A DNA stretch of 59,110 bases from a virus: positions 1 through 59,110 of IMG/VR virus record IMGVR_UViG_3300025626_000029. One strand, written 5' to 3'. Below, in pieces: positions 574 through 59,110 of this stretch. Numbering within the stretch: position 1 is the first letter of the stretch; the number at the start of each line of letters is the position of its first letter. The notes under the pieces were generated by a model. That model had not been told where the DNA came from. It did not search any database and was given only the letters and a program-made list of their open reading frames with translations. The position numbers and the translations under genes were made by a program.

Positions 574-618
574 TTAATTAGTTAACAGATAACCGAAGCG
601 CCCACTGGCGCTCCTTAA
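574..618 (-). repeat. Start-associated repeat copy 1
   Basis: In mRNA sense this reads GGAGCGCCAGTGGGCGCT and then, after two bases, GGTTATCTGTTAACT, ending 10 bases before the ATG of the next gene. AGCGCC and GGCGCT form a perfect 6-bp stem with an AGTG loop. Confidence 0.9.
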
Positions 619-619
619 T

Positions 620-769
620 TCATAGCTCTACATTTAATAAAATGCAAAGCTCCTCGTAATAAATTCTCCCACTACTGCTTAAGCGGTCGTAATCCCAGCC
701 CATATTATAGACTAAATCTTGTATGCGCTCCATTTTCTCATTCCAAAGCATAGCTTCTTTATTCTTCAT
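620..769 (-). CDS. Hypothetical 49-residue protein
   Basis: A short acidic/aromatic protein that starts MKNKEAMLWNEKM and ends in CILLNVEL. It is bracketed by repeat copies 1 and 2, exactly as its longer neighbours are, which is the main reason to accept so small a frame. No signal peptide, membrane segment or known motif is visible. The function is unknown. Confidence 0.65.
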   Translation of the reverse strand: MKNKEAMLWNEKMERIQDLVYNMGWDYDRLSSSGRIYYEELCILLNVEL

Positions 770-783
770 TGAATGTTTCTTTA

Positions 784-826
784 TTAATTAACAGATAACC
801 GAAGCGCCATTACTGGCGCTCCTTAA
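784..826 (-). repeat. Start-associated repeat copy 2
   Basis: Same element as copy 1, with the hairpin loop changed: GGCGC and GCGCC arms around ATTACT on the plus strand, followed in mRNA sense by GGTTATCTGTTAATT. It lies 15 bases upstream of the start of the 49-residue gene. Confidence 0.85.
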
Positions 827-827
827 T

Positions 828-1283
828 TTAGGCTAACGATCTTTCGCCATTGTCAGCGAAGCTATAATACCCATCTTCACAAACGATAATATGGTCTAAT
901 ACCGATATATCAAAAAGATCTAAGTTCTTTTTAAGTTTCTTAGTTACTCTTTTGTCGTTCTCACTGGGGTTTTTATTCCCGCTTGGGTGGTTATGAGCGA
1001 CAATAACAGAGTGAGACGTGCCCTCAATCGCCCTTCTCGTTATAGCTGGAATATCTACACTACAAGAAGCACCGCATCCTTGCGTAATTGTTTCTAACCA
1101 TAGTACAGAATTCGCCTTATTCATATACATTACAATAAATAGCTCTTGTTCAAATATCTTTTTCCCAATGTGCGCCTTTAATAAATTGTAGGCATCACGT
1201 GAGCTCCTTATTTTCTGTTCTATAGGGTTCTTTTTAGCCTTCCATTTTACCTCAGCTTTCCCAATAAATACTGTTGTTTTCAT
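828..1283 (-). CDS. radC: RadC-like MPN/JAB domain protein
   Basis: This 151-residue protein consists almost entirely of a RadC-type MPN (JAB/JAMM) domain. The metal-site signature is clear: H97-N-H99-P-S-G followed by D110, with a RadC-like lead-in (FIVMYMNKANSVL, then SVIVAHNHPSG). It lacks the N-terminal helix-hairpin-helix of full-length bacterial RadC (about 220 residues), so it is a domain-only version as often seen on mobile elements. RadC-like proteins are linked to anti-restriction and polyvalent-protein systems; no enzymatic activity is firmly established for the family. It sits in an early operon and is preceded by repeat copy 3. A second, separate HNHPSG domain occurs inside the giant protein at 43403-52195. 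Confidence 0.85.
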   Translation of the reverse strand: MKTTVFIGKAEVKWKAKKNPIEQKIRSSRDAYNLLKAHIGKKIFEQELFIVMYMNKANSVLWLETITQGCGASCSVDIPAITRRAIEGTSHSVIVAHNHPSGNKNPSENDKRVTKKLKKNLDLFDISVLDHIIVCEDGYYSFADNGERSLA

Positions 1284-1300
1284 CTTGTTTAAAGTTTAAA

Positions 1301-1338
1301 TTAGTTAACAGATAACCAAAGCGCCCAATGGCGCTCTT
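1301..1338 (-). repeat. Start-associated repeat copy 3
   Basis: Element before the RadC-like gene, with hairpin arms GCGCC / GGCGC around a short CAAT-type loop and the same TTATCTGTTAACTAA tail in mRNA sense. Confidence 0.85.
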
Positions 1339-1340
1339 TA

Positions 1341-1637
1341 CTATTCTAAATGTTCTCCAGCGTTGAAATAATCGTAGTAACGGTCGGCTCTGTATGGATA
1401 TTTTCCGTTTTCTATACATTCATCACACCAGCTCCCCGTTGCGTACCCGTACGCATCGTGACGGTCATATACGTTTTGATCATTACCACATCTACAAATT
1501 AACGACTCCTCCATATAAAATCCTCCTTCGCTGAATACGTCAGCGCATCCGAATTCCAAAAAGTCTTCCGCTTCCATCTTGTTATCAAAGGACGTGTATA
1601 AGTCCCCGTTTGCCTTGTATATCTTGTATACCTTCAT
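1341..1637 (-). CDS. Hypothetical Cys-containing early protein
   Basis: A 98-residue acidic, tyrosine-rich protein starting MKVYKIYKANGDLYTSF. The middle carries CRCGNDQ and, about 20 residues later, WCDECIENG, so there are two CxC / CxxC pairs that could form a small zinc-binding site. No recognised family. It lies in the repeat-punctuated leftward operon between copies 3 and 4, and is probably an early, host-directed accessory protein, judged only from size, composition and context. Confidence 0.7.
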   Translation of the reverse strand: MKVYKIYKANGDLYTSFDNKMEAEDFLEFGCADVFSEGGFYMEESLICRCGNDQNVYDRHDAYGYATGSWCDECIENGKYPYRADRYYDYFNAGEHLE

Positions 1638-1650
1638 CTTAATTAGTTTT

Positions 1651-1690
1651 AGTTAACAGATAACCAAAAAGAGCGCCCACTGGCGCTCCT
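1651..1690 (-). repeat. Start-associated repeat copy 4
   Basis: AGCGCC / GGCGCT hairpin plus the GGTTATCTGTTAACT tail in mRNA sense, just upstream of the 98-residue gene. Confidence 0.88.
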
Positions 1691-1693
1691 TTG

Positions 1694-1930
1694 TTAGTGT
1701 TCAGCGTAAACGGACGGTATTTGTATTCCGCTTTCGCTCCAAAGCTCACTCTCCCAATTCACAGAGTAAAAAAGCTCCTCGTCTTGCAATTCCTCCCAAA
1801 TGTCCAGCACCTCATCCACAGAGTAGATTTCCCCTGACGAATTGAACACGAAAGAACCAACGTTGTAAGGGTTGGAACGATCCAACAGTTGCAGTTGTTG
1901 AACACTCCACAATTTCGTAGCATTTCCCAT
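1694..1930 (-). CDS. Hypothetical acidic early protein
   Basis: A 78-residue protein beginning MGNATKLWSVQQLQLLD and strongly acidic in its second half (EELQDEELF). No membrane segment or known motif. The start is supported by repeat copy 5 immediately upstream and by tight packing with its neighbours. Function unknown. Confidence 0.65.
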   Translation of the reverse strand: MGNATKLWSVQQLQLLDRSNPYNVGSFVFNSSGEIYSVDEVLDIWEELQDEELFYSVNWESELWSESGIQIPSVYAEH

Positions 1931-1943
1931 TTTAATAGGTTTA

Positions 1944-1980
1944 AAGTTAACAGCTAACCAGGAGCGCCCACTGGCGCTCC
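1944..1980 (-). repeat. Start-associated repeat copy 5
   Basis: Hairpin arms GGAGCGCC / GGCGCTCC (plus strand GGAGCGCCCACTGGCGCTCC) and a slightly diverged tail, GGTTAGCTGTTAACT, in mRNA sense. Confidence 0.88.
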
Positions 1981-1985
1981 CTTAA

Positions 1986-2237
1986 TTAATCAATAATGTA
2001 AACAAGTTGAGTAAGTAGTTCAACTTTAACGTTATCATTCACGAGCCCTTCGCAGTATTCATCTATGTGGTCAATGTAGCTCTTAGGATCAAAACAGTAC
2101 TTTTTATACTGCTCTGTAGCTTGTGAGTATACACCGTTAAACGCTGAGTCCATAATTTCAAGAAATTGCGAATAGGTACGATAGTTACCCGTTGCAAAGT
2201 CCAGCTCTGCATTGTCGTAGTTGCTTAATGTTTCCAT
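1986..2237 (-). CDS. Hypothetical early protein, first gene of the leftward operon
   Basis: An 83-residue acidic protein (METLSNYDNAELDF at the start) that appears to be the promoter-proximal gene of the operon. About 200 bases of structured leader separate its ATG from the predicted promoter near 2445-2475, and repeat copy 6 lies directly upstream. No domain recognised. Composition and size are typical of small phage early proteins. Confidence 0.65.
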   Translation of the reverse strand: METLSNYDNAELDFATGNYRTYSQFLEIMDSAFNGVYSQATEQYKKYCFDPKSYIDHIDEYCEGLVNDNVKVELLTQLVYIID

Positions 2238-2250
2238 TTTAATAAGTTTA

Positions 2251-2290
2251 ATTAGTTAACAGATAACCAGCGCCCCATATAGGAGCGCCA
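2251..2290 (-). repeat. Start-associated repeat copy 6
   Basis: The most diverged hairpin (GCGCTCC pairs with GGGGCGC with one wobble), but with the intact tail GGTTATCTGTTAACTAATT in mRNA sense, ending 13 bases before the ATG of the 83-residue gene. Confidence 0.8.
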
Positions 2291-2440
2291 GTGTTGAACG
2301 TGTGCCCGTTCATAGGTTTCGGCTTTCTTAAGCCCTGGCGCCATTACTGGCGCACTGACCCCGCACTACTGGGGTTCTTCAGATCTGTTTAAACTTTCCC
2401 GAATGTCAAAGAACCTTTGAACGTTGAACCGTTCGCTATT
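2291..2440 (-). promoter_or_regulatory. Structured leader of the leftward operon with repeated dyads
   Basis: This is the predicted 5' untranslated stretch of the leftward operon. Visible structure: the dyad GAACG-N6-CGTTC occurs twice (2296-2311 and 2419-2434), TCAAAG-N3-CTTTGA lies at 2406-2420, a GGCGCC..GGCGC hairpin like those of the start-associated repeats lies near 2337-2353, and CCCC-N8-GGGG lies at 2359-2374. The two identical dyads could be operators or RNA hairpins. No protein frame is supported here. Confidence 0.5.
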
Positions 2441-2444
2441 AAAT

Positions 2445-2475
2445 GCAAGATATAAACATTTGTGAGTAAACCAAA
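2445..2475 (-). promoter_or_regulatory. Predicted Bacteroidetes-type promoter of the leftward operon
   Basis: On the minus strand a TTTG (complement of 2472-2475) is followed after 19 bases by TATCTTGC (complement of 2445-2452). The known Bacteroidetes consensus is TTTG-N19-21-TAnnTTTG, so spacing and most of the -7 box fit, with one mismatch in the TTTG part. Confidence 0.45.
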
Positions 2476-15641: not shown

Positions 15642-17420
15642 ATGGCTATTAAGTATCTAAACAGCCTAAACTTAGGCAAAAACGAGTTACAAAACGCTCG
15701 TATTCAAAACTTAGCTACAGCTCCGTCAAGCCCAGTAGAAGGACAAATCTACTACAACACGGGTGATAATGAGATGTACTACTACGATGGAACTGCGTGG
15801 CAGTCTATGGCAGGGGATATTACCTCTGTTACAGCTGGTGCAGGTCTTACAGGTGGTGGAACAGACGGTGCTGTAACTCTATCTATCAGCTCTGGGGCGA
15901 TTACTAATGCAATGCTTGACAACAGTTCTTTAACTGTTACATCAGGTGCCGGTCTCACAGGAGGCGGTTCAATTGCATTGGGAGGCTCTAGAACGCTTAA
16001 TATCGGTGCTGGTACAGGTATTACTGTTAATGCCGATGATGTTGCCTTAGACACCTCTCATAACCGTAACGTAGATCACTCAGCTGTTACACTTACAGCA
16101 GGTGCGGGTTTAACCGGTGGTGGTGACATTACAGCGTCACGCACTTTCACCGTTGGAGCGGGTACTGGTATCGCAGTAAACGCTGATGATGTTGCTCTTA
16201 GCCACTTAGGTCTTGAAGCTTTAGCAGACCCTAACGCTGACCGTATCCTATTTTGGGATGACTCAGCAGGTGCTACAGCTTGGTTAAGCACTTCTTCTGC
16301 TAGTGGTTTATCACTATCTGGAACAACACTTAGCTTATCAGCTATCCCTAACTCAAGCCTTACAAACAGCTCTGTAACTTACACTTCTGGTAATGGTTTG
16401 ACTGGCGGTGGTGAAGTTGCTTTAGGCGGATCCGCTACATTTAACATTGGTGCTGGAACAGGTATTACAGTTAATGCTGATTCTATTGAGCTTTCAGGAG
16501 CTTCAAGTTTAACATCTACGGTATTACCTAAATGGGATTCTGGTGGTGAGTTGGTAGACTCTTTGGTAAGTGACGATGGTAGTACAGTAACTATCTCAGG
16601 TAACTTAACTGTAAGTGGTACAACTACTACGGTCAACACCGAGACTATTAACCTTGCTGATAATATCATCCTCTTAAACTCTAACGAGGCAGGCGCTCCT
16701 ACGCAGAATGCAGGTATTGAGATTGAGCGTGGTACATCTACAAACGTACAGTTTGTTTGGGATGAAACAGGAGACCGCTGGGACTTTGGTGCTACCTACG
16801 ATGTACGTGCAAATGCATTTATTGGTGACTTAGAAGGTAACGCTGATAGCGCTACTGTTTGGGCTAATGCTAGAACAATCACTGTAGATGGCGATGTTTC
16901 TGGTAGTGTTTCAATTGATGGTTCTGCTGATGTTACCCTGAGTGTTACTGTAGATGGTGTTCAAGCCAACTCTGTTGCTTTAGGTACAGATACTACAGGA
17001 AACTATGTTGCTACGGTAACTACTTCAGGAGCGTTAAACGGATCAGCTTCTTCTGAAGGTGCTGCTTTAGCGCTTAGTGTAGATACAGCTACTACAGGTC
17101 AACAAGGTGTTGTTGAGTTAGCTACCAATGCTGAAACTATTACAGGAACAGATACTGGACGTGCAGTTACTCCAGCAGGAGTAGAGGCGCATCACGATTC
17201 TAAGAATCACGCTGAGGATGTAGGTGATGGAAGTGCTACTTCTTACGCTATTACTCACAGCTTAGAGACATTAGATGTAATTGTACAGGTTTACGAAAAG
17301 AGTAGCGGTGCTACAGTCTTTACAGATGTAGAGCGCACTGATACAGATACAGTTACTTTAGTTTTTGCTTCTGCCCCTGCTGCTAATGCGTACAGAGTAT
17401 TGGTAACAAGCGTAGCATAA
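15642..17420 (+). CDS. Tail fibre protein 1
   Basis: 592 residues. It starts MAIKYLNSLNLGKNELQNAR, an N-terminus shared with the next fibre gene (MAIKFLNSLN) and probably its virion anchor. Residues about 50-290 carry repeated blocks (AGAGLTGGGDITASRTF, GAGTGIAVNADDVAL) typical of trimeric beta fibre shafts. The middle has DNIILLNSNEAGAPTQNAGI, common in fibre shafts, and the end has the SYAITHSLETLDVIVQV module. There is no S74 domain. A terminator follows directly. Binding target unknown. Confidence 0.75.
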   Translation: MAIKYLNSLNLGKNELQNARIQNLATAPSSPVEGQIYYNTGDNEMYYYDGTAWQSMAGDITSVTAGAGLTGGGTDGAVTLSISSGAITNAMLDNSSLTVTSGAGLTGGGSIALGGSRTLNIGAGTGITVNADDVALDTSHNRNVDHSAVTLTAGAGLTGGGDITASRTFTVGAGTGIAVNADDVALSHLGLEALADPNADRILFWDDSAGATAWLSTSSASGLSLSGTTLSLSAIPNSSLTNSSVTYTSGNGLTGGGEVALGGSATFNIGAGTGITVNADSIELSGASSLTSTVLPKWDSGGELVDSLVSDDGSTVTISGNLTVSGTTTTVNTETINLADNIILLNSNEAGAPTQNAGIEIERGTSTNVQFVWDETGDRWDFGATYDVRANAFIGDLEGNADSATVWANARTITVDGDVSGSVSIDGSADVTLSVTVDGVQANSVALGTDTTGNYVATVTTSGALNGSASSEGAALALSVDTATTGQQGVVELATNAETITGTDTGRAVTPAGVEAHHDSKNHAEDVGDGSATSYAITHSLETLDVIVQVYEKSSGATVFTDVERTDTDTVTLVFASAPAANAYRVLVTSVA

Positions 17421-43402: not shown

Positions 43403-46400
43403 ATGCCTCAAGATAAACTCTCTGTACAGGATTTTGCATCACAGATAAAGGCTAAGTATCCAGAGTACAACGAATACGATGATTCTGTATTAGTTGACGC
43501 TATACTAGAAAAGTACCCTGTATACAAAGGGCAAGTAGATTACGCTCCAAAAAAAAAAGAAGCTACAGCTGGAGAGTCTTTGGTTGGACCATCAGTATCC
43601 ACAGAACCGACAGAGGTTGAGACACCACCAAATCCTTTCTTTGAGTCACTTAAAAAAGCTGATTTAGCGTTTGGTAGAGGTATTGCAAAGACTCCTATAT
43701 TAGCGGAGTTAGTATCTGGATCTAACAGCGTTGTCGGGGGAATACTTGATTACGCTAACATGGCTTACGACTTTGCTCGTTCTTCTGGAATGCCAGGTGG
43801 TTTTAATAGTGCTTTATTTCAAACCATAACATCTTTTGATGAACCTAACTTGGTTGAACAAGCGGCAGATATTTTTGCTAACAACTCAGAATACATAAGA
43901 AATACTCGTAACGCACAAGCGGGCATCACTAAAGAAGAGGCTGAGAAAGGTATTATAGGTTTAGCACAAGATGGTCAGATAGCTAAATCAGCTTTCTTAT
44001 TATTTAGCGGTGCTACAGAGGCTATACCTTCAGTAGCTTTGGCTGCTACAACAGGTGTTGGTACAGTTGCTGTAAGCGCTGGTGGTAATAAGTATCGTGA
44101 GATTGAAAACAATCCAGCATACTCACCGTCAGAAAAATTACTGTTTGCTACCGCAGCTGGTATTGTAGAGGGATTAGCAGAAAAGATGGGTGGGGCTGAC
44201 CTTGCAGCATTTAGAAAGATATTCTCTACACAAGCTTCTACTGAAGCATACAAACAATTTTTTATACAAAGTGTAAAAGCTAGTGACATCTATAAACAGA
44301 TGGCTAAAGGAGGTCTAGAAGAAGGTTTTGAAGAGGCTCTAGTAAATTCGTTTGATCAAATGGTTGCTGGGGTTAAAGAAGGAAAGCCTTTTGAAGTAAA
44401 CAAACTTGTTGACGATTTCTTAGTAGGTATGGTTGCCGGTGGTGGTACCATTGTAACAGCAAATGGAATGAGTGCTCGTGGTTCTATAAAGAATGAGAAG
44501 GCACGTGCAAAAAATGCACAACAGATAAAAGACCTACAGGATAAGAAAAAAGAAGCATCACAAGAACAGGTTAATGTTATTGATGATATGATCAAGAAGA
44601 ACATATCCTCATTACGTACATTAATTGATCAAGACGTTGAGTTCTTTGGTAAGTTTTCTACTGAGGACCAAAAAAGAATTAGAGATATTGATAGTGGGTT
44701 AAACAGTATAGCTAAGAAAAGAGAGCTTACTTCTGATGATTCTCAACTATATCTTTTACAAACAGAAGCTGTAGAACTTCTTGTTGAGAAAGATGCTATT
44801 GAATCTAAGTATCGCAACAACGAGGAAAATGCACTTATTGAAAAAGCTACTGACGAACAAATTGATGAGATTAGAAATCTTGAAGCTGTCATCCTTGATA
44901 AGAAGCAGAGGTTAGAAAATACAGAATCAAAAACAGCAGCTGATTTAATCAAATCTCAAATTGAAACATTAGAGTCAGAGCTGAATAAGAAAATAACAGA
45001 TATAATTGGTACAGTTGAAACTAAACCAGCTGCGCCAACAGAAACATTTGTACCAGAGGACGAACCTACTCCAGTTACTATTGACTTAAATGTAGACAAA
45101 CAAGCACAGCCAGATCGATTTGAGGATCTTATTGATGGTCGTGTAACCATGAAGTCTCCTTCTGGCAAGCAAGTTGCTGGTCGTATTGTTGATGAGGGTG
45201 CTGGTAAGATGTCTTTGCTAACTGACGATGGAGATATAATTGAGCTTGGTAATATGGATGATCTCAAGGGTAATTTTGCCGATGAGATAGGATTAGCTAA
45301 AGCAGAAGAGATAGTATCAATTGATGGTAATAAAATTACTATTCGTGGCGAGCAATATGAAAACAACTATAGCGATCCTCTAGCAGCGATTAACCGTGAC
45401 GATGAAGGCAGTATAGTATCCGTAAATTTGGATGCCGCAAACGGCACTAAAAGAACGTTTAGAGGCAACATAGGAGACGAGGTTGCTTATAACATTATTA
45501 CTAGCCAATACGAGCAAGAAGAATTAGAAAAGCAATTAGAAATTTTAGCTAAACAAGATGAAAAAATCAACCAACAGCTTGCCACGGCTCCAGAAACTGA
45601 AGTCGCTCCCACTCAAACAGCAACTACAAATATTGAGCAAGCTCCCGAACAAGAGCCAGAAGTAGCGCCACAGCCGAAAAAACGTATACAAGACAATCAA
45701 GTTCCGGTCAAAAAAGAGGTAATACGAGTAAAATCTAATGATGGTAGCTACGTAGATTATACTGTTACAACTAATTTAGACGGAAGCTATAAGTCTAGTT
45801 CTATAACTTACGATGAAAACGGTAATGAAACAGGACGCAATACAAGTACTTCAATAGGAAAGGGTTCAACAGCGTTAGATGCTGTAAAACAAAATGTAGC
45901 TGATGAATCATTAGGAGATATAGTTACAGTAGAGTCTACTCAAAGTGGAGAAGATTTTATGAATCCTAAAAAGAAAGCCGCATTAACTTCAGGACAAAAA
46001 AATAAACTTAAATCAAAGCAAGCTCCATCCGAAAAGCCAGCTGTTGAGAAAAAGTCAGAGCCTTCTACCACAGGGGATACCGAACTCCAAAAATTAACCG
46101 CATATGTTGATTACTTTAAATCAAATCCTGAAGCTAAAACAAAGATTCCAGGACCTAAATTCCCTAAAACCTATGGTTTAGATATATCAGTTGAAGTATA
46201 TAACCTACCTAATGGACGTTACGATATAGAAGCTTCATATGATGTAAGAAGAAAAGGAGAGATTTTTGGTTCTACCAGTATGTCGTCAAAAACTAATTAC
46301 GACCTTAACGGTGGATCTTCTTTTGAACAAGCGCTGGATATTGCATTTTCAAACATTGATAATAGTCTTTTAAACAAATCCAATCCTGTGTATACAGAAA

Positions 46401-49400
46401 GTGAATTGGCTAAAATCAAAGGCGTATTTATTGAAAATTGGAAAGCTGAAACACTTATCGGTAGAGCAGATGTTGAATCAAAAAAGACCGACAATACTGA
46501 TATGATAACCAGATTTGCTGGTGCTAGTGATATGAGTAGCGGTAACCCTAATAGACAGTGGGAAAATGAAGAAGATTTCTACTCTAAGGTTACCAGAGGC
46601 ACAGGAATGTCTGATGAATTCAAAACACAGATAGGTATTGCAGCTGTAATAAATAATGCAAAAAGAGATCGAGATGTTATCAATGGTAAGAAGCCTACTT
46701 CAAATAATGAATTGGTAAGTAAACCTCTTGATAGTATAGAAAGATTTAGAACTGTAGGTAAACAGGGTAAAATAGAATACTTTGCTGGTAGAGAAATGAG
46801 TCCAGGGAAGGGTTGGAAAGCTGTATATGGAACTCCTTTAGCTTCTAAATTAGTAGATATTGATGATGTATTAGTTAAAGCTGGTTTAAAGAAAGAAGAA
46901 TCTGTTGAGCCGGTAAAAGCGAAACCAACTGTTAAAACAGTTACACCAAAGAAAGATTCTAAGCCAATACCTAGTAAATCTGAAATTATTGATGCTGATT
47001 TAACAACAGGAATGTCGTTAAAGTCTGACAAAGATGCTAAGAACTTTCAGGAGATTAGAAAGTTTGGTATTGGTGTCGTAATAGAGACAACCCCTAAAAA
47101 GTTTATTAGCGAACACATAAAAGCTGTGTCTGCAAAATACACTTTTGTAGCACCTGGATATTCGCAAAACACTATTCCAGAGGTACAGAAAGTAATCATT
47201 GATTTTGTTAAAGATTACAATGCGAAGATTAACAGTATAGATAAAGAAGCTAGACCTTTTAGCCAGCTTATTGATTCTCGCAAGAAAGCTATTGATACTA
47301 TTAAATCCTTCGTAAAGGAAAAAGCAGATGCTATCGGTGTAAATAAGATACTGTTTGACTCTGTAACTATTGATGGTGTAAGTAAGGTATTAACCTTTGC
47401 TGATGCTATTAAACAGATCGATGACAGTGAGTTTTCTAAACTAAGAAATTATACTGAGGAGAATATTAAAGAAGAAGAAACCATCATAGCTGGTGTTAAG
47501 CTGACTAAAGAGGAGGCTAAAAGAGCTAAGGGGTTCATACCTTCAGCCGAAGATCTTAAAAACTTCTTCACTACAGAAAATGGTAAAGGCGCTGAGTTCA
47601 CAGTGCCCAATAAAGAATGGTGGGAAGCCGCTAAGAAGATAATGAATCTTGGTAGTGGTGTATCTGTAAGATTACACATCTATGAAGGCGGATACGATAA
47701 AAACCCAAAAAGAAAAAAAACAAAAGACGCTCCTAAAAATATAATGATACACGGCTCAGACAAGGGAGCCGCTAAAAGTGTAAAGGATGTTCTTGATTTT
47801 AAATACAAGGGCTTAAAAGGCATTGAGGCTGTATCAGCATTAGAGCAAGACTACTTTCATAACCTCGCTAACCCATGGCTTAAAAAAACCGTTACTGGAA
47901 CCAAAATAAAATTTGATCCAAAGGAAGTAGGTCAAGTAATGTGGGCTAATAACGGAATGTATGGATTTGAACTCATCACAAAAGCCAGAGCGTTTGATGC
48001 TTTAAGTAAAGGCAAAGGGGCTAAGAGACTTGTAATGGACGGGTTTGATGCGGATAGTTTTAGCGATTACGCAACTGAAAGCAATTTAATACAAGATATT
48101 AAAGACCTAAGAGCAGAAGGTTTAGATGTAGTAAAACAATACGTATCAGCTGTCGCTAAAGCTTTTAACGAAACAGAGGACAACGTAGCTAAGAGATTAG
48201 GGTTTGAGGCTTTGACAAAAGATGAAGAGGTTGTAGCTGTTAAATATCCAAAGACAGAAGAACTTAAAGGAACTGATGCAGCGCCTTCTGGAGCTTATAC
48301 TGATCAAAAAACTCAAGTAGTAAACAGTAAGCAACTCGGACCAATACGTTTTAAAAGCTCTATGGTAGCTAAAAACAAAACTGAAGAGTTCACCTTACAG
48401 CAAAGAATATACGAACGGAACGATGCTTTCAATCTTACAGGTCCAGAAAAAATAAACGGTCCTAGTGATGTAGCGTTTTTATTACGTCACCTTGAGTCAG
48501 CTACTTCTGAAAACATGTTCTTAGTAGTCAGTACTAAAGAAGGAGATTACAAAACCATTTGGCTTGGAACAGGTACTCAAAATTCAGCTGGCGTTGATAT
48601 GGTGCAAGTTGCTGGTCTTATAGATGCTGCTAGATTTGATTTAAAAGGAAAAGAAGTTTTTGTGACTTTTATCCATAACCACCCTTCTGGTAATTTAAAT
48701 CGTAGTTCTGGAGATTTAAACGTATATAGAAAATTTTCAAAATATATAAAATCAGTACCTGGAGTTACGCTATTAGATGGTTTAATTATCAATCTTGATA
48801 GCGGAAAATTCTCAACTTTTAATTCTGCAACATCAGAAAAATTAGATGTAAAAACTCCAGATAGTGTTGTTCCGGCTACAGTATATTCATTTTCAAGAAA
48901 AGAATTATACGAGCCGTTTTCAGAAAGACCTGGGGTTTTGACAGATAACACAAAGGCTGCAATGTTTTTAAGTAAGTTAAAGATTAATAATAGTGGAAAG
49001 TTTGGTCACCTTATATTAGACCAGAGTTTAGCCCCAACTTACTTTGCGTTTGTAGATCCTAATATATCAGCTGCTGAATGGGCAAGAACAATTGCTGTAG
49101 ATGCTGGTAGACATGGTATTACTACAATTATAGTGGGACCAATCGGAGATCCAAAAGTATTAAGCACTACGAACACATTGAAGAAAATGAGTGAGGTTCA
49201 AGTTATTGATACTAAAAATACAAGTGGTAATACTTCTATATTTGAAGGCAATGTTGAATACGTAACAGTAGAGGAAAGCACCCCAGAATTTAAAGAAAAA
49301 CAAGGATATACTCCTTTAACAGATGAAGAATTAGACTATCCATCAAGACTGCAATCTGCTTTAGAGAAGATTAAAGGCTTTAAATGGAACCAAGTACAAA

Positions 49401-52195
49401 AAGAGGTTATAAAAATGGAAGAGATGAGATCTTCTAAAGTCTCTATAGGTATGAAAGGTCTAGGAAAGATTTTACGAGAACTCAACAAAGACCTTGGTGG
49501 TAACTGGGTGAGCCGTAAGTTGAAGGGTATAGATACTGAATACATTGTTAAAGCACGTATGTTAGCCAACAGATTTATGATGGAGGTTGACAAATCAGCT
49601 GTTGTTAATGATATACTTGAGTTGAAAAACGGTGAGCGTATACTTAAAAACTTAAGAGCTGTACGTGCTATCATAGATGAAAAGTCTGCTGCTTTGGTAA
49701 CAGATAGTACATTCTCTAAGCTGCCAAAAGAAACAAAAGAGAACATCTTAGAAAACATTGGTACATACATGCACCGCTCTTACAGGTTCTTTGACGATCC
49801 TACATACAAGTTTAAGTTCGGATCTATAGGCAAGTATCTAAATCTAGGAAAGAACGAAAGAAACAAAGCTGTACAAGAAGAGTTTTTAGTTCTTTATAAC
49901 AACTGGATTAACAAGCTTATTGACGAAGCTGGATACACCAGAGAGCAAGCTGTTGAGTCAACATTGGTAAAGGCTTCAAAAGGAAGCAATAAGGGATACT
50001 CTAAGAGAGAGTTGATTATAGATGAGGCTAAGAGAAATATAGACAACCTTATTAAAGAATACACTGAGCTTCTCGATAACAGAAAGAAGATGAGAGCTCA
50101 AGGTAAAGGAACCAATATTCCTAATAGTGCTTTCTTGGAAAAGAAGGATATACCGGCACACATCAGAGAGCTTCTTGGCGAAGTCAAAGATCCTATTGCA
50201 CAAATGGCGGCAACAGGTGAGGTGCTGTTTAACATCTACGAAAAAGGTAAGATGGTTGAGATGATTGCTGACGGCATAGAAGACAACCTAAAAGATGTTT
50301 ACGCTAAAGAAGAGTTTAAAAAAGATTTCTCTAAGCTTACTAAGCCACAGAAGAAATTGATATTAGACCGTGTTAATCAAGAGCCGATGATCATTTCCAA
50401 CAACAACATAAAGGAAAGACAGAAGGCTACATACAAACAGATTAACGACCCTATGAGTCCATTAAACACAAAGTGGGTTCATAATGATATCATTGAAATC
50501 ATACAGTCTAAACCAATTTACGAGACAAGCAAAGATGGTATAGAAGGTGGTTTCTGGAGAGGTTACTTCTTTGCATTAAAGAATCAACGTATGGTTAACG
50601 TTATATTGAATAGCCCGACATGGGGTAAGAACGTTATAGGTACAATGTATTTTAACTGGGCTAACGGATGGTTCAATCCTACGAAGCAAATGGTTAACGT
50701 TAAAAACATGGCTGAAGGTATTCTAAATGGAGACCAAAAGTACATGGATATGCTTACCGAAATGTCAGAGAATGGATTAATAGGTCAGTCATTTAATGTA
50801 AATCAAATCGGTCTTTCTGGATTCTCATACTATTTCTCTGTAACTGGAGACAGGTCCTTCTACGATAAGTACGTGGGTAAAGTACGTAATATGGGCAAGA
50901 AGGTTATTGCCGACTTAGGATCTACTTATGCTGCCGTTGATGATTTTGGTAAGATGTCTATCTATCAAAACGAAAGAGAGTCTTTTGCTAAGAAACTTTA
51001 TGGTGATGAGTACGCTAACCTAAACGACACACAGCAGAAAAAAGTTAGAGCTGCCGCTGCCGAACGTGTAAAAGACAACACTCCTACATGGGGTAGAATC
51101 ACTAAGCTTGGTAAAGCTGTACAGAGAATGCCTATTGGTGATTTCCAGGGTTTCCGTTTTGAAGCGTTTAGAAGTACCTATAGAATTATAGCGAACTTAA
51201 GAGACGATATTAAAACACTAACATCAGACGATACTTTATCTGACAAACAAAAATCCGAATACAGAAAAGACATCCGCAGAAAACTTACCGGTCTTGGATG
51301 GGTAGGAGTATCTGGTCCTTATGCTATAATCAAATCCGTTGCTTATGCTTACAGTGGTGTACTTGGTATGCTTGGGTTTGATGATGAAGAAGAAACAGAA
51401 CAGCAAAGAAAGAAACAAGCAGAGATGTTTGAGGCAGCAACAGTTGTTAGACCAGGATGGTTGAAAGACCACAAGGTTTGGGTTAAATCTGTTGATGATG
51501 ATTTAAAGGTTCGTGTATACGACTACACTGGATTTGATCCTTACGCTGAGGTCTTTGGATTTGATGGTTACTTTGGCGTATTAGGCGATGCTATACAGCC
51601 TAACATGGCTGTAAACCTTTTAACTTCTTTATCTAAGAATGAAGATGTTTATGGTAGATCAATCGCTGATCCTTCTGATCCAGCCTTTAAGCGTGTTATG
51701 GACATGGCTAAGTATGGAGGCTCTCAGTTCTTACCTTCTTTAATAACGTCTTCTTACAGAGATGCTTCTAAGAAAAACGAAGAGATAGAAAAAGCTGAAA
51801 GATACTTAAAGCTACAAGGTTTGAATCCAAAAGACTTTGACTTGCAAAGAGTAAATGTAGCAAAGGAAACTTTAAAGCTTATTTCTGAAAGAACCTTTGT
51901 ACGTGACTACGAGTATGATTTAGTACAGCAGTTTAGATACGCTGTTAAAGGATATAAGAGAAGCTTTGACGAGAACTACCTAACTACAGATTATCCAGAG
52001 CACAGAAAGAAAATCTTAGATGATGTAAGGGATATGTATTATTCTGTAATTAAGGTTGCTGCTTACAAAGGAAACTTTCAAAAAATAACGGATGTAAATA
52101 AAATTATTAAAACCAACTTTGATGATTTTGAAGAGTCCTATATTTTAAACAATACTGATTTGAGCAGTAAATTCCCAAAAGGATATTTTGATTAA
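43403..52195 (+). CDS. Giant internal virion / polyvalent protein with an embedded RadC-like MPN domain
   Basis: 2,930 residues, 15% of the window. Start: DFASQIKAKYPEYNEYDDSV, then LVDAILEKYPVYKGQVD, an N-terminal helix pair seen on giant phage virion proteins. About 150-260 is a hydrophobic Gly/Ala region, 370-540 coiled coil, 650-1000 acidic linkers. A RadC-type MPN domain has the metal motif H1758-N-H1760-P-S-G then D1771. The last 900 residues are helical and aromatic (NVILNSPTWGKNVIGTMYFN, WGRITKLGKAVQRMPIGDFQ). Such polyvalent proteins are thought to enter the cell with the DNA. No polymerase catalytic motif (for example a DxDGD-type) was seen. Confidence 0.7.
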   Translation: MPQDKLSVQDFASQIKAKYPEYNEYDDSVLVDAILEKYPVYKGQVDYAPKKKEATAGESLVGPSVSTEPTEVETPPNPFFESLKKADLAFGRGIAKTPILAELVSGSNSVVGGILDYANMAYDFARSSGMPGGFNSALFQTITSFDEPNLVEQAADIFANNSEYIRNTRNAQAGITKEEAEKGIIGLAQDGQIAKSAFLLFSGATEAIPSVALAATTGVGTVAVSAGGNKYREIENNPAYSPSEKLLFATAAGIVEGLAEKMGGADLAAFRKIFSTQASTEAYKQFFIQSVKASDIYKQMAKGGLEEGFEEALVNSFDQMVAGVKEGKPFEVNKLVDDFLVGMVAGGGTIVTANGMSARGSIKNEKARAKNAQQIKDLQDKKKEASQEQVNVIDDMIKKNISSLRTLIDQDVEFFGKFSTEDQKRIRDIDSGLNSIAKKRELTSDDSQLYLLQTEAVELLVEKDAIESKYRNNEENALIEKATDEQIDEIRNLEAVILDKKQRLENTESKTAADLIKSQIETLESELNKKITDIIGTVETKPAAPTETFVPEDEPTPVTIDLNVDKQAQPDRFEDLIDGRVTMKSPSGKQVAGRIVDEGAGKMSLLTDDGDIIELGNMDDLKGNFADEIGLAKAEEIVSIDGNKITIRGEQYENNYSDPLAAINRDDEGSIVSVNLDAANGTKRTFRGNIGDEVAYNIITSQYEQEELEKQLEILAKQDEKINQQLATAPETEVAPTQTATTNIEQAPEQEPEVAPQPKKRIQDNQVPVKKEVIRVKSNDGSYVDYTVTTNLDGSYKSSSITYDENGNETGRNTSTSIGKGSTALDAVKQNVADESLGDIVTVESTQSGEDFMNPKKKAALTSGQKNKLKSKQAPSEKPAVEKKSEPSTTGDTELQKLTAYVDYFKSNPEAKTKIPGPKFPKTYGLDISVEVYNLPNGRYDIEASYDVRRKGEIFGSTSMSSKTNYDLNGGSSFEQALDIAFSNIDNSLLNKSNPVYTESELAKIKGVFIENWKAETLIGRADVESKKTDNTDMITRFAGASDMSSGNPNRQWENEEDFYSKVTRGTGMSDEFKTQIGIAAVINNAKRDRDVINGKKPTSNNELVSKPLDSIERFRTVGKQGKIEYFAGREMSPGKGWKAVYGTPLASKLVDIDDVLVKAGLKKEESVEPVKAKPTVKTVTPKKDSKPIPSKSEIIDADLTTGMSLKSDKDAKNFQEIRKFGIGVVIETTPKKFISEHIKAVSAKYTFVAPGYSQNTIPEVQKVIIDFVKDYNAKINSIDKEARPFSQLIDSRKKAIDTIKSFVKEKADAIGVNKILFDSVTIDGVSKVLTFADAIKQIDDSEFSKLRNYTEENIKEEETIIAGVKLTKEEAKRAKGFIPSAEDLKNFFTTENGKGAEFTVPNKEWWEAAKKIMNLGSGVSVRLHIYEGGYDKNPKRKKTKDAPKNIMIHGSDKGAAKSVKDVLDFKYKGLKGIEAVSALEQDYFHNLANPWLKKTVTGTKIKFDPKEVGQVMWANNGMYGFELITKARAFDALSKGKGAKRLVMDGFDADSFSDYATESNLIQDIKDLRAEGLDVVKQYVSAVAKAFNETEDNVAKRLGFEALTKDEEVVAVKYPKTEELKGTDAAPSGAYTDQKTQVVNSKQLGPIRFKSSMVAKNKTEEFTLQQRIYERNDAFNLTGPEKINGPSDVAFLLRHLESATSENMFLVVSTKEGDYKTIWLGTGTQNSAGVDMVQVAGLIDAARFDLKGKEVFVTFIHNHPSGNLNRSSGDLNVYRKFSKYIKSVPGVTLLDGLIINLDSGKFSTFNSATSEKLDVKTPDSVVPATVYSFSRKELYEPFSERPGVLTDNTKAAMFLSKLKINNSGKFGHLILDQSLAPTYFAFVDPNISAAEWARTIAVDAGRHGITTIIVGPIGDPKVLSTTNTLKKMSEVQVIDTKNTSGNTSIFEGNVEYVTVEESTPEFKEKQGYTPLTDEELDYPSRLQSALEKIKGFKWNQVQKEVIKMEEMRSSKVSIGMKGLGKILRELNKDLGGNWVSRKLKGIDTEYIVKARMLANRFMMEVDKSAVVNDILELKNGERILKNLRAVRAIIDEKSAALVTDSTFSKLPKETKENILENIGTYMHRSYRFFDDPTYKFKFGSIGKYLNLGKNERNKAVQEEFLVLYNNWINKLIDEAGYTREQAVESTLVKASKGSNKGYSKRELIIDEAKRNIDNLIKEYTELLDNRKKMRAQGKGTNIPNSAFLEKKDIPAHIRELLGEVKDPIAQMAATGEVLFNIYEKGKMVEMIADGIEDNLKDVYAKEEFKKDFSKLTKPQKKLILDRVNQEPMIISNNNIKERQKATYKQINDPMSPLNTKWVHNDIIEIIQSKPIYETSKDGIEGGFWRGYFFALKNQRMVNVILNSPTWGKNVIGTMYFNWANGWFNPTKQMVNVKNMAEGILNGDQKYMDMLTEMSENGLIGQSFNVNQIGLSGFSYYFSVTGDRSFYDKYVGKVRNMGKKVIADLGSTYAAVDDFGKMSIYQNERESFAKKLYGDEYANLNDTQQKKVRAAAAERVKDNTPTWGRITKLGKAVQRMPIGDFQGFRFEAFRSTYRIIANLRDDIKTLTSDDTLSDKQKSEYRKDIRRKLTGLGWVGVSGPYAIIKSVAYAYSGVLGMLGFDDEEETEQQRKKQAEMFEAATVVRPGWLKDHKVWVKSVDDDLKVRVYDYTGFDPYAEVFGFDGYFGVLGDAIQPNMAVNLLTSLSKNEDVYGRSIADPSDPAFKRVMDMAKYGGSQFLPSLITSSYRDASKKNEEIEKAERYLKLQGLNPKDFDLQRVNVAKETLKLISERTFVRDYEYDLVQQFRYAVKGYKRSFDENYLTTDYPEHRKKILDDVRDMYYSVIKVAAYKGNFQKITDVNKIIKTNFDDFEESYILNNTDLSSKFPKGYFD

Positions 52196-53330: not shown

Positions 53331-53436
53331 CAGAAAAAAGAAAAATCAACATACTGTAAAATATTGTGAAATAGAACCTAAAGAATGTGACGGTAAGTGC
53401 TGTTACTCAAAGAGGAAAAACAAAAAAGGAGGCTAA
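53320..53436 (+). CDS. Possible Cys-rich microprotein
   Basis: A 38-codon frame from TTG 53320, overlapping the end of the spanin by 11 bases: basic start, then YCEIEPKECDGKCCYSKRK and a stop in the terminator loop. Four cysteines in 13 residues and no downstream ATG. The translation does not look random, but only a TTG start is available. Confidence 0.3.
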   Translation: MTSNRKKKNQHTVKYCEIEPKECDGKCCYSKRKNKKGG

Positions 53437-53447
53437 TGCCTCCTTTT
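53424..53447 (+). terminator. Strong terminator at the end of the late arm
   Basis: AAAAGGAGGC and GCCTCCTTTT form a perfect 10-bp stem around TAAT. Its A- and T-rich flanks make it work in both directions, fitting the converging operons. Confidence 0.9.
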
Positions 53448-53588
53448 CTGATCTGTTAACTTAAACTCTATGAACCATCCAAGAGTGGGGGAGAGAGATG
53501 AAATGATCAATAGAACTGGTGCTAAGATACTAATATTCTTTATATAAAAAGAAAGAGGGGTAGAATAATTTCCACCCCTCCCTTAATT
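53448..53588. other. Convergent gap between the two arms
   Basis: Only a 25-codon plus-strand frame beginning at ATG 53470 is present (MNHPRVGERDEM...); I do not accept it. The stretch otherwise holds the leftward operon terminator at 53555-53580. Confidence 0.5.
53555..53580 (-). terminator. Terminator of the leftward replication operon
   Basis: In leftward sense GAGGGGT-N12-ACCCCTC is followed by TTTCTTTTTA, just downstream of the 40-residue gene. Confidence 0.8.
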
Positions 53589-59017: not shown

Positions 59018-59110
59018 TTATTTGTGTCTATCTCCTTTAAGGACATTTTTTGATTGACTAATGCGCTGAAGATTATCTAATCTGTTATTTGATATATCTC
59101 CATCTATATG
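59018..59110 (-). CDS. HNH homing endonuclease, partial (5' end off the window)
   Basis: A leftward frame entering from the right edge with 30 residues before the stop: HIDGDISNNRLDNLQRISQS then KNVLKGDRHK. HIDGD-x-x-NNR-x-DNL is the diagnostic C-terminal half of the HNH motif in free-standing phage homing endonucleases. The first histidine and the DNA-binding N-terminus are outside the window. Confidence 0.75.
   Translation of the reverse strand, partial: HIDGDISNNRLDNLQRISQSKNVLKGDRHK

Follow-up and report, generated by a model that had tools for sequence, protein, structure and literature searches.

The window analysed here is the whole 59,110 bases of a virus record (IMGVR_UViG_3300025626_000029). 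Because it encodes a Crassvirus muzzle protein, the window is assigned by gene content to a crAss-like phage of Bacteroidetes; among annotated phages it stands closest to Caudoviricetes ctfjg026, with 50% identity in the terminase, and to the Flavobacterium phages elemo (41%). The record is a fragment with genes broken at both ends, a phrog_2554 gene at position 1 and an HNH-like C-terminus at 59110. At its left end six small genes lie on the minus strand between 3 and 2237 (in order of transcription 1986-2237, 1694-1930, 1341-1637, 828-1283, 620-769, and 3-563), encoding a RadC-like protein (828-1283), a phrog_2554 protein (3-563), and four products of unknown function. The sixth gene is cut by the window edge, leaving 187 of about 238 amino acids (238 in relatives). 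A second RadC-like JAB domain is found in residues 1690-1803 of a 2930-aa protein (43403-52195) at the end of the structural module.

A repeated element precedes each of the six leftward genes, as the original prediction had proposed. It consists of a hairpin of 7-11 bp, a gap of 0-1 nt, and a tail, GGTTATCTGTTAA or a close variant, ahead of the ATG, and all six copies are on the minus strand between 580 and 2288. The first in transcription, copy 6 (2254-2288; hairpin 2270-2288, GGTTATCTGTTAACT 2254-2268), is followed by gene 1986-2237; copy 5 (1945-1980; hairpin 1961-1980, then GGTTAGCTGTTAACT) by gene 1694-1930; copy 4 (1651-1692; hairpin 1667-1692, tail 1651-1665) by gene 1341-1637; copy 3 (1303-1337; hairpin 1318-1337, tail 1303-1317) by the RadC-like gene 828-1283; copy 2 (786-822; hairpin 801-822, tail 786-800, GGTTATCTGTTAATT) by gene 620-769; and copy 1 (580-614; hairpin 595-614, tail 580-594) by the edge-truncated gene 3-563. 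The first G of the tail lies 28-34 nt from the ATG. The motif AGCGCC-N3-7-GGCGCT occurs five times in the window and not once in 100 shuffles, and GGTTANCTGTTAA occurs six times, always on the minus strand, with none in the reversed control.

The copies had been described as nearly identical, which is mostly so, but the copy at 786 ends in TTAATT, that at 1945 has GGTTAG, and that at 2254 has an unrelated stem (GCGCTCC/GGGGCGC). That the element stands before each gene of that operon is correct as far as the six genes at 3-2237 are concerned; in relatives the array runs on with more genes and more copies, and the array in this phage probably continues past the window edge. Other operons had been thought to lack the element. 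The leftward genes at 53.6-59 kb do lack it, but one degenerate copy is present on the plus strand at 53425-53470. This copy, a hairpin AGGAGGCTAATGCCTCCT followed by CTGATCTGTTAACTTAAACTCT and the ATG of a 25-codon ORF, overlaps a likely terminator between convergent operons.

The search of related phages that had been recommended revealed arrays in three, all in gene direction: IMGVR 3300025108_000042 (10 copies), 3300021958_001469 (8), and 3300045135_000807 (9). Counted by the tail GGTYATCTGTWAA, the four phages have 6, 10, 8, and 9 copies, on the gene strand only, with G at position 6 in one window copy; the pattern was absent from a reversed-pattern control, seven more distant contigs, and two GenBank phages. 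Hairpin and GGT are 0 or 1 nt apart in 31 of the 33 copies, and the first G lies 24-37 nt (mean 30) from the ATG. Tail position 4 (Y) is T or C in all 33 and never G, and stem sequences diverge widely with pairing kept. Some elements are present in one phage and absent, or with their gene elsewhere, in another (the 49-aa gene of the window, the C_2639 gene, and gene 1341-1637 compared with D_5431), so genes and elements are shuffled as units.

Beyond these phages, a 14-base scan of viral contigs returned mostly chance single matches, with multiple copies with hairpins in the four phages only. A scan of 84,980 genomes returned 94 single matches, fewer than estimated by chance, and no multi-copy case; blastn of the element region against GenBank phages gave no match. 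L527, considered as a second array, was rejected as a pentapeptide-repeat gene, and a match to the FopS sRNA was rejected because its score was far under its cut-off.

The composition of the stems bears on whether the element is read as RNA or as DNA. On the sense strand the 33 stems contain 257 Watson-Crick pairs, 17 G.U pairs, and no A.C pairs (G.U and A.C being scored symmetrically), and with distinct stems counted once (n = 24) the figures are 15 G.U and no A.C; stem-pair events are partly dependent through shared ancestry, and the direction of the G.U bias is clear. Every sense-strand G.U is an A.C mismatch on the opposite strand. This pattern indicates that the hairpin is selected as sense-strand RNA and acts in the mRNA. 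Of the functions first offered, the same excess favours the two RNA options, a control signal and a processing site, and speaks against a DNA operator.

These counts make a DNA-level site very improbable, whether it served as an operator bound by a protein or as a hairpin promoter of the N4 type, used by a virion RNA polymerase. It would fit a repeated dyad near early-gene starts, and virion RNA polymerases are present in the crAss-like phages as a group. The promoters of the N4 virion RNA polymerase are template-strand DNA hairpins and resemble the elements as short hairpins before early genes, whereas the G.U pairs of the elements favour sense-strand RNA. In addition, stem sequences vary freely, and a DxDxD polymerase motif was looked for in the 2930-aa protein and not found.

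The comparison originally drawn with start-associated sequences of cluster K mycobacteriophages extends to position only. The cluster K SAS and ESAS are likewise repeated conserved sequences just before the starts of non-structural genes, partly with upstream inverted repeats, but SAS overlaps the Shine-Dalgarno sequence, and the ESAS repeats have SigA-like promoters and lack RNA covariation (PMC11373665). The 13 bp GGGATAGGAGCCC or the 17 bp inverted repeats with promoter hexamers that define the cluster K elements were not found in the window elements, whose hairpin does covary as RNA and whose sequence and structure are unrelated.

In most copies only 0-6 nt separate the preceding gene's stop codon from the start of the hairpin, genes move between phages together with the element, and 4-6 T follow the stem in a few copies. 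These features would suit a cassette like the T4-type PeSL (promoter-stem-loop), in which the hairpin terminates the upstream transcript and the tail is the phage promoter of the next gene. Such a cassette seems to us very unlikely, as the stem is followed by 0-2 T in most copies, in contrast to the convergent terminator near 53.43 kb, and in all four phages the first copy still keeps its hairpin although it has no gene to terminate. Inside the arrays, a search for host-type promoter motifs before the elements found none, and both the gap and the tail-to-ATG spacing are nearly fixed. The likeness to PeSL (Arbiol 2010 and Comeau 2014, through PMC4503421) lies in a stem-loop between small genes shuffled as modules; the window elements differ in that their T-tracts are mostly short, the promoter motif was not found, and the tail matches a leader RNA. 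The defining pair of a terminator stem-loop with T-tract and an early promoter was not seen in them.

This leader, at 2295-2389 and just upstream of the first element copy, is the most informative part of the locus and was missed by the original prediction. Conservation here extends over ~110 nt; the leader occurs once in each of the four array phages and was absent from all other phages checked. Reading along the minus strand, the P1 5' strand AACAGAT (2383-2389), complementary to element ATCTGTT, is directly followed by CTGAAGA (2376-2382), which matches hammerhead CUGANGA and is invariant in the four phages. Three covarying helices follow, P2 (2358-2375, loop AGTAGTGC), P3 (2338-2353), and P4 (2321-2334), and then GAAACC (2315-2320), a hammerhead-like GAA with ACC complementary to element GGT. 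The last helix, P5 (2295-2312), has the loop GGCACA, whose GCAC could kiss GUGC of the P2 loop. A weak flavobacterial promoter-like site, TTTG...TATATCTTG, lies upstream of the leader (2446-2475, minus strand); the motif TTG-N-TATATTTG in this place is exact in two relatives.

Across the four leaders 96% of cells are paired, and nine pairs changed on both sides compared with 3.2 in shuffles, none of 500 shuffles reaching nine; the compensatory changes are seen in P2, P3, and P4. P5 is paired in three leaders, and the fourth (phage D) allows, by eye, a shifted stem that keeps the GCACA loop. The P1 strands are invariant, so covariation cannot test P1. In the minimum-energy folds of all four leaders AACAGAU pairs with the AUCUGUU tail of the first element, and this predicted cis fold is well supported. 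Among the 56 occurrences of CTGANGA in the window, AACAGAT stands in front of one only, that of the leader (0.0034 expected). A blastn search of the leader against GenBank phages gave two 21-base chance matches, and the stricter version of a scan for CTGAAGA..AGTAGTGC returned known members only, plus chance-looking matches. Upstream of P1 lies an invariant GUUCUU that is able to pair with AAGARC (window 2376-2415, minus strand); judged by complementarity, this helix would exclude CUGAAGA and P2 and compete with the core, a possible switch.

Leader AACAGAU-CUGAAGA...GAAACC pairs with element GGU-Y-AUCUGUU in the strand order of a type I hammerhead (RF00163; PMC3088659; PMC10085705), the strand blocks of which are named C, G, and S in Eckert 2023 (PMC10085705). 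The likeness comprises CUGANGA, GAAA, and UH, flanked by strands of stems I and III that match, with the blocks arranged as C, G, S. CUGANGA stands directly after the stem I 5' strand (AACAGAU-CUGAAGA), and UH, with A15.1-U16.1, lies between the stem III and stem I 3' strands (GGU-Y-AUCUGUU against GAAACC and AACAGAU). Unlike a type I hammerhead, however, the window has separated halves, with one enzyme-like leader and many site halves, position 17 is mostly U, and block G is interrupted. No stem II 3' strand lies directly before GAAA, P3 and P4 standing between it and P2; because they break block G between the stem II hairpin and GAA, the leader is not classed as a hammerhead. Rfam gave no match in window or leader, and a covariance model of relatives' hammerheads gave no significant match to the leader. 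Weak antisense matches of that model to the elements were judged to be a side effect of their palindromic layout.

Complementarity of this kind might also serve without cutting, the leader, or an RNA processed from it, pairing with every element to control translation or stability. The single leader sequence of each genome has 7 bp complementarity (6 in five copies) with 32 of 33 tails, and fold and cofold agree on the pairing. But the tail alone forms duplexes of modest energy (-5 to -7 kcal/mol), the paired region lies upstream of the ribosome footprint, and neither GAAACC:GGU nor the tolerated T/C position is explained, and we regard control by pairing alone as quite unlikely.

Complete hammerheads occupy the place of the elements in relatives, which favours the RNA processing site among the functions first offered. 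A perfect example precedes the start codon of a phrog_2554 ortholog: GGTTAA CTGATGA GGAT-TTATG-ATCC GAAA TGCCGTA-GTGA-TACGGCA TA TTAACC. Such RNAs (for example in L535, L359, and elemo) are complete in their core nucleotides, and their three stems follow the type I order (stem I, CUGANGA, stem II, GAAA, stem III, UH, stem I). The covariance model (R1), built from 18 sequences and used alongside a structural search, gave 36 matches at E < 1e-4 in 77 loci; many crAss-like relatives have one to four hammerheads at a locus, and an ORF invariably follows 18-33 nt past the cut. A separate pattern scan found at least 114 hammerheads in at least 89 viral loci, most of them with 18-26 nt between cut and ATG. 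In L525, L534, L535, and L537 a hammerhead precedes the ortholog of window gene 3-563. The cultured Flavobacterium phage elemoE_6-9C (NC_055854; L240:16304-16361, minus strand), which was not in the model, has a canonical hammerhead before gp66 (E 1e-8; predicted cut at 16309, 28 nt from the ATG); the annotated small ORF gp65 on the other strand overlaps it.

Canonical type I hammerheads with stem I GGUUAA/UUAACC were also observed, at a fixed distance to start codons, in L559-L678, L177, L178, L179, L188, L359, and L534-L541, with up to five in 3.8 kb (L633). Rfam misses or under-scores these RNAs, one scoring 30.2 bits where the RF00163 cut-off is 34. The sequence after the cut is alike in relatives (TTAACCAATTAAA) and window (TTAACTAATTAAA). 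Half-sites with the TTAACC stem of the relatives were searched for, and the search yielded chance cases or protein-coding look-alikes only. A precedent near a start codon exists in haloviruses HF1/HF2, where a hammerhead lies 13 nt upstream of an early helicase gene (PMC3088659). Among the open-licence papers searched, none was found that describes hammerheads before several crAss-like phage genes, or half-site arrays, which is weak evidence of absence.

Another start-associated array was observed in L520/G011 (IMGVR 3300046167_000571; L520:4120-6230). It has A-U-closed hairpins, with G.U pairs on the sense strand, then TTTAGGTAGTA and the ATG, and it precedes several genes, one of them orthologous to window gene 3-563. 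A complementary CUGANGA strand or enzyme half was looked for in this contig and not found; arrays of this type may have another reader, or the partner may lie outside the contig.

A protein could read the hairpin and GGUYAUCUGU of the elements in the mRNA and coordinate the genes; it might be a translational regulator of the phage or an endoribonuclease of phage or host, and the leader would pair with the first copy to tune that one gene. The layout is typical of sites for RNA-binding proteins, with a hairpin conserved in structure only and, at about -30 to -17 from the AUG, a single-stranded tail that does not vary, and the L520 array, with its hairpin and TTTAGGTAGTA, suggests that a different reader may exist. 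We consider a protein reader a credible if unlikely explanation. No candidate protein was identified, and such a reader would leave unexplained both the presence of CUGAAGA and GAAACC at the exact flanks of the tail-complementary strands and the occurrence of complete hammerheads in this position in relatives.

We put at about even the chance that the elements belong, as site halves, to a hammerhead-type system by which the polycistronic early mRNA is cut ahead of each gene, the first copy being cleaved in cis and the others in trans. One early mRNA, from a host-type promoter upstream of the structured leader, probably covers the six genes. Each element would be a cut-site half made up of the hairpin, GGU (stem III strand), Y (position 17), and AUCUGUU (stem I strand). 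This reading makes sense of the tail invariance, with GGU as stem III arm, T/C as cut position, and AUCUGU as stem I. The leader would supply the enzyme half once, with AACAGAU (stem I), CUGAAGA, a hairpin at the place of stem II, and GAA-ACC; it would pair with the first element in cis and with the others in trans or at long range. Cleavage in GGUYAUCUGU between Y and A is predicted between 2265 and 2264, 1956 and 1955, 1662 and 1661, 1314 and 1313, 797 and 796, and 591 and 590 for copies 6 to 1, respectively. Each gene would thereby gain a 5' end that is short, A/U-rich, and unstructured and lies 20-33 nt before the AUG, which would suit Bacteroidetes ribosomes, since these work without Shine-Dalgarno pairing. 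Each upstream message would be left with a 3' hairpin cap, and the hairpin would stack beside the short arm. More tentatively, and with some doubt, we propose that a single hammerhead-like leader RNA cleaves, in trans or at long range, the half-sites before 6-10 early genes, in replacement of the individual hammerheads of relatives. The simplest account would be that the lineage of the window swapped separate hammerheads for site halves and one enzyme-like leader.

Computed support for this cleavage system comes from selection of the hairpin on the sense strand, the constancy of the tail across the 33 copies, a leader that covaries and is complementary to it, and the hammerheads at the same position in relatives; from these we infer cleavage itself, catalysis by the leader, action in trans, and the benefit to the mRNA. 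Several observations weigh against it, among them the interruption of the leader's core by P3 and P4, the lack of a match between leader and hammerhead models, and the competing GUUCUU helix. Position 17 is U in 29 of 33 element copies and C or A in all of the relatives' hammerheads among the matches listed (at least 114); U is the poorest permitted base there in hammerheads. The G of copy 1945 breaks the second stem I pair, and the stem III arm has only 3-4 bp. Cofolding in trans gives the same pairing with modest energy and beats shuffled-tail controls in some cases only.

The analysis suggests that at the elements one early mRNA is divided into messages for single genes, and one ribozyme-like RNA heading the operon may do the cutting. 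The natural hammerheads known to us cut themselves; if the proposal is true, the locus would be a natural one-to-many ribozyme, with one enzyme-like half and many site halves, and would show how a cis ribozyme could turn trans-acting. The presence of a hammerhead in a cultured Flavobacterium phage makes the processing idea directly testable. The hammerheads at a fixed distance before starts in many crAss-like relatives point to a general means of splitting polycistronic early mRNA, which would yield messages of one gene each with unstructured 5' ends in hosts whose translation begins without Shine-Dalgarno pairing.
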